DNA from: Pseudomonas poae
Lineage (GTDB): Bacteria; Pseudomonadota; Gammaproteobacteria; Pseudomonadales; Pseudomonadaceae
Assembly (NCBI GenBank): GCA_028869255.1
Contig: CP110972.1
Span: 6,548,001 to 6,612,000, forward strand
Reading direction: 5' to 3'
Length of the DNA stretch: 64,000 nt
Position numbers and translations under genes: made by a program. Below the pieces are notes generated by a model that had not been told where the DNA came from, searched no databases, and saw only the letters and a list, made by a program, of their open reading frames with translations. The stretch's first letter is position 1. Every line of letters starts with the position of its first letter. Of this stretch, positions 2-16,617 are shown in pieces.

Positions 2-271
2 CCGGCCAATATGACCGAGATCGACACTGCGCTGGCCCCGTGCCTGGACCTGACCCTCGAAGAGCTCGACCCGGTTGAACTGGCCGTGCTGCGCCTGTCC
101 ACCTGGGAGCTGCTCAAGCGCGTCGACGTGCCGTACCGCGTGGTGATCAACGAAGGTATCGAGCTGGCAAAAGTCTACGGTTCGACCGACGGCCACAAGT
201 TCGTCAACGGTGTGCTCGACAAGCTGGCCCCGCGCCTGCGCGAAGCCGAAGTGAAGGAACACAAGCGCTAA
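2..271 (+). CDS. nusB: Transcription antitermination factor NusB, C-terminal part (5' end outside window)
   Basis: This is the C-terminal part of a NusB protein; the reading frame is open to the window edge, so the gene starts upstream. Visible family features are the helical segment with [18 protein letters not shown] and the following [15 protein letters not shown] and [12 protein letters not shown], which belong to the NusB helical bundle. NusB binds boxA RNA with NusE (S10) and acts in rRNA antitermination. It sits directly upstream of thiL, the usual Pseudomonas arrangement at the end of the riboflavin gene cluster. Product identity is clear; the missing N-terminus cannot be judged. Confidence 0.93.
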
Positions 272-14882: not shown

Positions 14883-15099
14883 GGTTGAATCCTTTTTTGT
14901 TTAGGTTGGTTGGGCGTTGCGTTCAACATGGGCACAGATTAATGGGTGGGGCGCGGGGGATAAATCGGGTGGGATAGGTAATACCGTCAACCTGAAGGAG
15001 ACAATGGTTGAAGGGCCAGCAGTACCGGTCCCTTTCATTTGCAGGACGTTTCCTAGAGAATCCCAGCCGCTTGCGCCAGCAAAATCCCGCGACTAGGCT
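14883..15099. other. Intergenic stretch upstream of the C4-like element
   Basis: The first ~200 bp of a 448-bp gap. It should carry the YcaC promoter on the minus strand; I see no defined motif. A hairpin TCACTG-6 bases-CAGTGA follows at 15108-15125. Confidence 0.35.
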
Positions 15100-15129
15100 G
15101 CGGATCGTCACTGCATATTCAGTGATCGG

Positions 15130-15323
15130 GTTTAGTCGCCCGGATTCGATTGGCGCATAAGCAACTCATGAGTCAGGCAGTCCTTCGCCTGCATCTTATG
15201 GTGGCTGTGCGCAGGGCACCTCCGGGTGCGCCGGGTTTCCAATCGACCGGTCGACTAACCTGCGTACAGCTGCCGCCTTTCGTTTAGTCGCGGGAAATGG
15301 CAGCTCCAAATTATCGATTGGAG
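15130..15323 (+). ncRNA. C4-antisense-like structured RNA leader
   Basis: A long stem pairs GGTGGCTGTGCGCAGG (15200-15215) with CCTGCGTACAGCTGCC (15259-15274); inside it GGCACC-TCCG-GGTGCGCC makes a second hairpin. Two short segments in the 3' half, GACTAA (15253-15258) and AGCTGCC (15268-15274), are complementary to TTAGTC (15284-15289) and GGCAGCT (15299-15305) just downstream, in the same order as the a'/b' and a/b pairs of phage P1 C4 antisense RNA. Then CTCCAA (15304-15309) can pair with TTGGAG (15318-15323), hiding the Shine-Dalgarno. Assignment to the C4 family is by resemblance, not by a covariance search. Confidence 0.55.
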
Positions 15324-15330
15324 TTTTGCT

Positions 15331-15567
15331 ATGGATAACGTTGTTTCGAGTTCACCGTCATCGGGTGCAACTAACCCTTTTACCGTCAATGAAGAACTGA
15401 GCTTCGAGGATGCCTGGGTGCGAGTGGCTGAGTTGCTGCAGTGTGCGGTGGCTACGTCGCAGGTGCTCGGTGAGCCGCTGGGTGCGCCGCACAGGGCGGT
15501 GATGCATTTGGTGGAGATGGCGAAGATGGTGGCGGATCGGGCTGTGGAGTGTATGCAACCTGGATAA
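15331..15567 (+). CDS. Small DUF6124/DUF3077-like protein
   Basis: A 78-aa acidic protein: a flexible Ser/Pro-rich start, then helical segments (LSFEDAWVRVAELLQCAVA, AVMHLVEMAKMVADRAVEC). It resembles the small DUF3077/DUF6124 proteins found in several copies in fluorescent pseudomonads; no catalytic motif is seen and the function is unknown. GGAG at 15320-15323 is the ribosome binding site and lies within a hairpin of the C4-like leader, so translation is probably controlled. Confidence 0.75.
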   Translation: MDNVVSSSPSSGATNPFTVNEELSFEDAWVRVAELLQCAVATSQVLGEPLGAPHRAVMHLVEMAKMVADRAVECMQPG

Positions 15568-15846: not shown

Positions 15847-16617
15847 TCAAATGCCCACCTCCGGGTCCGTTTTAGAGCCGTCCCAGCCTAAAAGGTGCTC
15901 GTCCAGCGGCACCGGCCTGCGGTTGTTCAGGGTGGACCACCAGAACACCCAGCCGAGGATCTCGAAGTTTTGTTCAAAGCGTTGCTCGTGCGTGAGGTAT
16001 TCGTCCGGGTGTTCGCCGGCGTTGTGGCTGCGCATGCGCAGGCCGCCGCCCGGGCGGTTGTAGAGGTATTTGATGCGCAGCATGCCGTCGTGTTCGACGG
16101 CGTAGATTTCGCCGTCGATGATTTGGGTGCGGCCTTTGTCGATGGCGAGGGTGGCGCCTTGTTGGATGATGTCGATCATGCTGTTGTCGACCATGTAGGC
16201 GCCCAGTGCGCGGTCGGGGTTTACGTTGAGGGCTTCGAGGGTGTGCAGCGAGATGCGGATGCTTTCGGTGGAGGTGAATGAGGCATGGAGAGGAATCTCC
16301 ACGTCGATTTTTTGTGGGCGGCAGGCGGGGCCTGTGAGGTATTTGCCGGTTTCTTCGCGGGCGAGCAGTCCTTTACGGGCGTCCGGGCCTTCCAGCAGGA
16401 AGTTGGCCGGTGGGTGTTTGGGGCCTTCGCCGGTGCGCAGCCAACGGCTGGAGATGCACAGCAGTTCTGCGATCTCGTTGAGTCGGCCCATGGGTACACC
16501 GCGCTTGAACCAGTTGTTCACGTGTTGAGGCGTGACACCACGGTTCTTGGCGAAGTCGGAGGCGGAAAGATGAACTTCCCGTAGTAGCGCTTTTAAACGA
16601 TCACCTGATGTATTCAT
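15847..16617 (-). CDS. LexA-like phage/pyocin repressor (HTH-XRE plus S24 peptidase)
   Basis: A 256-aa CI-type repressor. The N-terminal helix-turn-helix is SASDFAKNRGVTPQHVNNWF; the C-terminal S24 self-cleaving domain has Ser146 in VDNSMIDIIQQGATLAID and Lys183 in LRIKYLY. Such repressors resemble PrtR and cleave themselves after RecA activation under DNA damage, releasing prophage or pyocin genes. Here no phage structural, integrase or cro-like gene lies nearby: ppa follows on one side and a small unknown gene on the other. It is either a remnant or a regulator acting at a distance. Length matches PrtR-like proteins. Confidence 0.85.
   Translation of the reverse strand: MNTSGDRLKALLREVHLSASDFAKNRGVTPQHVNNWFKRGVPMGRLNEIAELLCISSRWLRTGEGPKHPPANFLLEGPDARKGLLAREETGKYLTGPACRPQKIDVEIPLHASFTSTESIRISLHTLEALNVNPDRALGAYMVDNSMIDIIQQGATLAIDKGRTQIIDGEIYAVEHDGMLRIKYLYNRPGGGLRMRSHNAGEHPDEYLTHEQRFEQNFEILGWVFWWSTLNNRRPVPLDEHLLGWDGSKTDPEVGI

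Follow-up and report, generated by a model that had tools for sequence, protein, structure and literature searches.

The 64-kb stretch of Pseudomonas poae DNA analysed here (the window) contains a single Rfam match above the cut-off. This match is to the C4 antisense RNA family (RF01695; E 5.4e-13, gathering score 45) and lies on the forward strand upstream of a gene encoding a 78-aa DUF6124 protein (Table 1). The corresponding 87 nt are predicted to adopt the C4 fold with -48 kcal/mol, and none of 200 shuffled sequences was equally stable. Both the fold and covariation indicate that the C4 basal stem and the two inner hairpins are present. The initial annotation of this region had described the leader as a long stem with an inner hairpin, as the fold confirms, and had proposed a search with the Rfam C4 covariance model and a test for covariation across homologous leaders. 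The search returned 75.7 bits, and covariation was found in the stem as well as in the antisense pairs. In a sample of 66 distinct 87-nt C4s, which leans towards structure because the sequences are covariance-model hits, 99.1% of the stem pairs are standard, with 139 double-change cells, versus a mean of 91.3% and a maximum of 92.1% in shuffles. The dinucleotide GG at positions 7-8 of the C4 model is found in all 122 distinct C4s. Judged from its sequence, the locus is a genuine C4 antisense RNA.

Table 1. Features of the C4-DUF6124 locus (positions in the window).
Feature	Positions	Strand	Description
Probable sigma70-type promoter	15071-15099	+	-35 TTGCGC 15071-15076, 17-nt spacer, -10 TAGGCT 15094-15099
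c4-a1b1-like target structure	15093-15146	+	a1 in hairpin loop; RF03163 42.2 bits, below gathering score 46.7
a1 target	15132-15138	+	TTAGTCG; complementary to 15252-15258
b1 target	15146-15153	+	TCGATTGG; complementary to hairpin-2 loop 15239-15246; b1 and loop altered together in close relatives
C4 antisense RNA	15194-15280	+	RF01695 75.7 bits; fold z -5.5
GGU, 5' end of basal stem	15200-15202	+	resembles the RNase P cleavage site reported for phage C4 (PMC5320573)
b' element, hairpin-2 loop	15237-15246	+	TTCCAATCGA; pairs with b1 and b2
a' element, junction strand	15252-15258	+	CGACTAA; pairs with a1 and a2
C4 3' basal stem strand	15268-15275	+	AGCTGCCG; also complementary to 15298-15305
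a2 target	15284-15290	+	TTAGTCG; complementary to junction strand 15252-15258
Stem-mimic, a2-b2 spacer	15298-15305	+	TGGCAGCT; complementary to C4 3' stem strand; permutation tests
Hairpin enclosing Shine-Dalgarno	15304-15323	+	CTCCAA 15304-15309 / TTGGAG 15318-15323; fold
b2 target	15314-15323	+	TCGATTGGAG; complementary to hairpin-2 loop; includes Shine-Dalgarno GGAG
78-aa DUF6124 protein, putative controlled gene	15331-15567	+	PF19619 27.4 bits, cut-off 27 (marginal)

All four pairings of the P1 type are present at this locus, namely those of the junction strand with a1 and a2 and those of the hairpin-2 loop with b1 and b2. The b2 target covers the Shine-Dalgarno of the DUF6124 gene. The elements are named by position, and other papers may label the C4 loops differently; the names a' and b' are used because the scoring recovers the a1, b1, a2 and b2 sites annotated in the P1 record. 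The a-pair had already been recognised correctly in the initial annotation (15253-15258 with 15284-15289) and is seen here one nucleotide longer on each strand. A second pair given there, 15268-15274 with 15299-15305, is indeed complementary, but it is not the b'/b2 pair of P1, which is formed by 15237-15246 and 15314-15323. The pairing of b' and b2, the upstream a1 and b1 targets and the probable promoter (upstream features spanning 15071-15153) had been missed. The hairpin proposed to hide the Shine-Dalgarno of the 78-aa protein was also recovered. This hairpin is a conserved tendency over 84 loci, with a score of 14.8 for self, 13.4 for non-self and 11.5 for shuffled sequences.

The pattern TTG[TC][GA]C-16..18-TA[AGT]NNT, which describes the probable promoter, occurs upstream of 28 of 90 C4 loci (those of 91 with sufficient upstream sequence), against a mean of 0.55 and a maximum of 2 in 20 base shuffles; it was drawn by eye from some of the same loci as were counted. 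A general scan for consensus promoters and terminators found none. The structure carrying a1 has the same place upstream of C4 and the same fold as c4-a1b1 (RF03163), but differs in staying under the cut-off of this model. In the same genome, 9 of 21 RF03163 matches are above it. The conserved 5' end of the Rfam c4-a1b1 model (CUAguCU) coincides with the -10 of the proposed promoter, and part of the RF03163 model may therefore be promoter DNA and not RNA. An orphan c4-a1b1 match of 34.9 bits without C4 (L221, at C1:589208-589257 of this genome, minus strand) precedes an ORF resembling, by eye, a family of about 100 aa located behind other C4s. A weak resemblance to IsrK of Gifsy-1 (RF01394) over 15107-15197 was rejected as an identity, its 26.5 bits being far under the cut-off of 50.

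The window protein could be aligned with other DUF6124 members. Two members from the same genome, L012 and L021, were excluded from this alignment because their start and body are in different frames or the ORF is short. Over 325 pairs from 26 of the 29 close-relative sequences described below (those of equal length) dN/dS is 0.18, and by this measure the DUF6124 gene is under purifying selection. The predicted structure is a two-helix hairpin (mean pLDDT 79, with an N-terminus of low confidence), and a fold search with this model gave no PDB match at E of 0.001 or less. DUF6124 has no PADLOC or NCBIfam match, and toxin and defence families found no support. In tblastn searches of the phage, plasmid and viral collections, no relative of the window protein was found. 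One phage record, EU982300, matches a paralogue at positions 58-282 of its 22.7 kb, which is perhaps flanking chromosome. The DUF3077 protein and, weakly, one DUF6124 paralogue are similar to PHROGs of unknown function, so that a phage link is possible. Homology of DUF6124 to P1 Icd was considered and rejected, no similarity being found. A DUF6124/DUF3077 gene is mutated in evolved P. putida (PMC9630843).

The initial annotation had singled out this leader as the best candidate in the window for an under-described regulatory system. Both the Rfam match and the covariation in stem and antisense pairs support its central claim of a chromosomal DUF6124 gene behind a C4-type antisense leader, but the locus is not a lone case. 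The 6.8-Mb genome harbours 21 C4 RNAs and 21 DUF6124 matches, and for 17 of these C4s a DUF6124 match follows on the same strand at no more than 250 nt. Downstream of the remaining four are one DUF3077 gene, one ORF of 60 aa and two others of 97 and 107 aa. Four DUF6124 genes of this genome are without a C4 match, two of which keep a c4-a1b1 match. C4 was found in 110 genomes from a draw of 119 of the genus, with up to at least 33 per genome, and DUF6124 in 95. Among 274 genomes drawn from the class, the P. poae genome alone has DUF6124, and 18 have C4, this one included.

To describe the downstream genes, 145 C4 loci were compiled, 91 from Rfam searches and 54 from a DUF6124-based search, the latter being biased by the way they were found. 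Among the 76 loci named by that search, 54 passed a C4 score of 40, three more scored 37.8-38.4 and 19 had none within 500 nt. The 70 genus loci outside the P. poae genome are the best-scoring C4s and not a random draw. Clustering of the downstream ORFs, with one member of each cluster identified, gave 105 DUF6124/DUF3077, 18 of a family of about 60 aa, 8 of the family of about 100 aa, 8 Bro-N antirepressor-like and 6 singletons. The ORF chosen starts 43-60 nt after C4 in 136 of the 145 loci; the chooser is automatic, favours 38-70 nt and picked an unlikely start for L012. Several side observations were made in this collection. Some DUF6124 copies behind a C4 look broken (L012 and L021 of this genome, and L034), with a frame split between start and domain body or a short ORF directly after C4. 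In eight Pseudomonas loci (L038, L040-L042, L044, L045, L048 and L077) the C4 precedes a Bro-N antirepressor-like gene of about 175 aa; L040-L042 and L044 share one C4 sequence, and L045 and L048 another. A genome of another family (G379; L108, L117 and L122) has six C4 matches, four of which are clustered in 1.4 kb of one contig, and L108 and L122 precede nearly identical small ORFs.

The hairpin-2 loops of all 21 C4s in the P. poae genome differ from one another. When the four pairings were summed and all C4s were scored against all targets, the mean was 75.3 for self and 50.3 for non-self combinations, and none of 20,000 permutations reached the self mean. The own target was strictly best for 20 of the 21 C4s, and the own C4 for all 21 targets. 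With a2 and b2 alone, these numbers were 19 and 20 of 21, respectively. Two of the C4s then score a foreign target higher, and some cross-talk is therefore possible. At the genus level, with the 64 loci left from 91 after removal of identical loops, each pairing was self-matched (0 of 10,000 permutations), and single pairings ranked first less often, e.g. loop/b2 in 40 of 64 loci. Because the copies are related, fewer of the changes are independent, but relatedness by itself does not create matched differences. These values are ungapped scores on bare loops. Duplex free energies with loop segments that include stem bases were tried and set aside; they gave weaker self-specificity (junction/a2, 540 of 10,000 permutations within this genome) because CCGG stems dominate. 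Possible control in trans of the C4-less genes of the genome by other C4s was examined at three orphan c4-a1b1 sites, of which two precede DUF6124 genes; the best sums there, 31, 35 and 35, lie within a non-self range of up to 39. From the self and non-self scores the 21 copies, the window locus among them, have matched specificities that are largely private.

A change of specificity was found among close relatives of the window gene. This set consists of 29 sequences, the window and 28 fetched loci with at least 81% identity, 24 of the 28 having at least one flanking marker gene of the site. Fifteen are of the window type, nine have another hairpin-2 loop (CCTAGC core) with matching b1 and b2, and in five no C4 was found. 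A flanking marker gene is carried by seven of the nine loci with the CCTAGC core. The loops of the two types score 21.9 and 19.0 on the b2 of their own type versus 10.8 and 12.1 on that of the other type, and 20.0 and 26.0 versus 11.3 and 13.4 on b1. The junction/a2 pairing is 17.0 throughout both types. By these scores, the close relatives with a C4 fall into two specificity types that differ jointly in loop, b1 and b2. In four of the five leaders without C4, an a1b1 is retained and fused almost directly to the ribosome-binding site, and the fifth has a different upstream sequence. All five loci retain an intact ORF. A search of the genomes of the four with the fused a1b1 found no C4 with the specificity of the window at up to two mismatches, so C4 is not always needed; a control genome gave the exact match, and a reversed control pattern gave one chance match in that genome.

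The gene for an S24-type repressor adjoins the window locus, as the initial annotation had pointed out in describing a neighbouring phage repressor. A tblastn match to it was found in 21 of the 28 fetched loci, some of which are truncated. The link with C4 looks incidental, since the 20 remaining C4 loci of this genome have no such match within 1.5 kb. In some species, extra sequence is located between DUF6124 and the S24-type repressor gene (tblastn positions; L128, L130, L141, L145 and L154, and window 15850-16617).

C4 RNA, the P1/P7 specificity types and multi-copy chromosomal C4s, the last in Acinetobacter, are already known. C4 RNA and c4-a1b1 have been described (Weinberg 2010, PMC2864571; review PMC12197685). 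The locus resembles the immI region (c4-icd-ant) of P1 and P7 in the fold of the RNA, the order and spacing a1-b1-C4-a2-b2-ORF, the position of b2 at the ribosome-binding site and the start of the ORF about 50 nt after C4. The loop and targets of P1 are not those of P7 (PMC5320573, PMC12197685), which makes two specificity types, as among the close relatives here. In contrast to immI, the copies described here are chromosomal, about 20 per genome, and have different loops. In P1 and P7, C4 controls the icd-ant operon, whereas the gene behind the window C4 is DUF6124 and not an antirepressor gene; no ant gene follows, and the next recognised gene is on the other strand. In seven C4 loci with a distant main ORF, a short ORF begins at +47 to +55. 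In six of them it has 24-36 codons and runs into the main start, with an overlap of 4 nt in five and 8 nt in one, like the 4-nt overlap of icd and ant1 in P1; in L034 it ends 10 nt before the main start. Acinetobacter baumannii AB5075 also has 21 C4-like RNAs (Group 1 sRNAs), with reads consistent with processing at a GGW motif (PMC5320573), and the same paper notes Pseudomonadales among the predicted C4 carriers. The available text of PMC5320573 does not identify targets for these sRNAs, whereas here the adjacent gene is a matched target. A connection of DUF6124 or DUF3077 with C4 RNA was not found in the literature searched.

We propose that one promoter (around 15071-15099) would give a transcript carrying a1b1, the C4 RNA, a2b2 and the DUF6124 gene. 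The C4 RNA would fold and, as in P1, would probably be released from this transcript by RNase P cleavage at the basal stem. Pairing of its junction strand with a2 and of its hairpin-2 loop with b2 would then cover the Shine-Dalgarno at b2 and keep translation of DUF6124 low. A further pairing, at a1b1, would dampen the transcript as a whole. In P1, repression by C4 is a translational block that leads to termination of the transcript. The 20 or so cassettes of one genome would be insulated from one another in the cell, because each locus has a loop and targets that are mostly its own, and repression may be relieved. It is very probable, in our view, that the C4 cassette is a self-contained, chromosome-resident unit on a conserved gene.

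Besides this antisense role, the second pair of the initial annotation raises another reading. The C4 3' basal stem strand is complementary to the a2-b2 spacer (the stem-mimic), and over 91 deduplicated loci of the 145 this pairing scores 18.9 for self, 17.5 for non-self and 12.5 for shuffled spacers (maximum 13.0), with 0 of 5000 permutations. Within the P. poae genome alone (n=21) the self-specificity is modest (105 of 5000 permutations). The pairing is stronger in 22 loci from 14 genomes outside the genus (of 26 loci, four being truncated), with 22.2, 17.9 and 13.4 for self, non-self and shuffled and 0 of 5000 permutations. For P1 taken singly the pairing lacks significance, being reached in 77 and 78 of 1000 shuffles. 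A control with the C4 5' strand did not score above shuffles, yet gave 49 of 5000 permutations over the 91 loci. The spacer also tends to pair with the Shine-Dalgarno region, with the self and shuffled scores already given and 0 of 5000 permutations in Pseudomonas, and 15.6 for self, 11.8 for shuffled and 2 of 5000 permutations in the other loci. In 54 of 55 and 19 of 19 loci holding both (73 of 74), the stem-mimic overlaps the anti-Shine-Dalgarno segment, where random placement expects a fraction of about 0.61; the cut-offs for holding both were chosen by the analyst. On these statistics the stem-mimic is a conserved further element over the C4 loci tested.

These data could mean that the spacer copies the C4 5' basal stem strand, so that the C4 3' strand pairs either with the 5' strand or with the spacer, which itself pairs with the Shine-Dalgarno. 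The Shine-Dalgarno would be closed when C4 is formed and freed when C4 is opened, in about 20 insulated copies per Pseudomonas chromosome. As part of this reading, it is conceivable that the cis element is common to C4 loci generally while being absent from the Rfam models and the P1 annotation. Folding without the C4 5' part raised the mean unpaired probability of the Shine-Dalgarno from 0.16 to 0.27 in the 84 Pseudomonas loci whose ORF starts 38-70 nt after C4 (of 91; higher in 72 of 84, p 1e-10), and from 0.19 to 0.27 in the 22 others (16 of 22 higher, p 0.085). In the window it only rose from 0.0005 to 0.026. Since the Shine-Dalgarno stays mostly paired and the window value is nearly unchanged, we regard such a cis switch as rather unlikely and did not adopt it as the main reading. 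The Shine-Dalgarno is predicted to be paired even without C4, and C4 may thus be only one of two locks.

Other explanations of the C4 cassette concern its function and origin. The resident C4s could serve mainly as an immunity store against incoming phages with matching antirepressor mRNA targets, the adjacent gene being secondary. This has been proposed for the Acinetobacter C4-like sRNAs (PMC5320573), and the 21 different hairpin-2 loops in one genome would fit. However, no target has a better match than its own C4, and in 17 of the 21 loci of this genome the neighbour belongs to a conserved protein family and not to the antirepressors, which makes a store of this kind improbable. A type I toxin-antitoxin system, with DUF6124 as the toxin held down by C4, is suggested by the small size of the protein, the antisense RNA over the ribosome-binding site and the many paralogues, and P1 C4 also controls icd, a division inhibitor. 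Against it, the C4-less relatives keep the intact ORF in genomes where, in the four searched, no C4 of the window's specificity was found, no hydrophobic segment was seen by eye in the predicted two-helix hairpin, and neither PADLOC and NCBIfam nor the comparison with P1 Icd gave a match; we judge it distinctly improbable. That the locus is a relic of a P1-like prophage immunity region, in which C4 happens to precede a small chromosomal gene, is very improbable and already disfavoured: C4 is a phage RNA, an S24-type repressor adjoins and C4 outside the genus often precedes genes resembling, by eye, antirepressors, but the pairings are kept and change together at the site across species, the protein is apparently under purifying selection and lacks tblastn relatives in the mobile-element collections, and 17 of 21 copies stand before the same gene family.

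With C4-controlled DUF6124 cassettes as the preferred reading, a multi-copy chromosomal C4 family gains target genes, and the orphan families DUF6124 and DUF3077 are linked to a regulator. The approximately 20 matched antisense pairs per genome are a natural series, in which specificity was changed coordinately at one site, and the evolution of RNA-RNA specificity thereby becomes directly testable. Removal of C4 offers a route to the role of the DUF6124 protein. This gene family is apparently under private RNA locks, which can now be put to the test.
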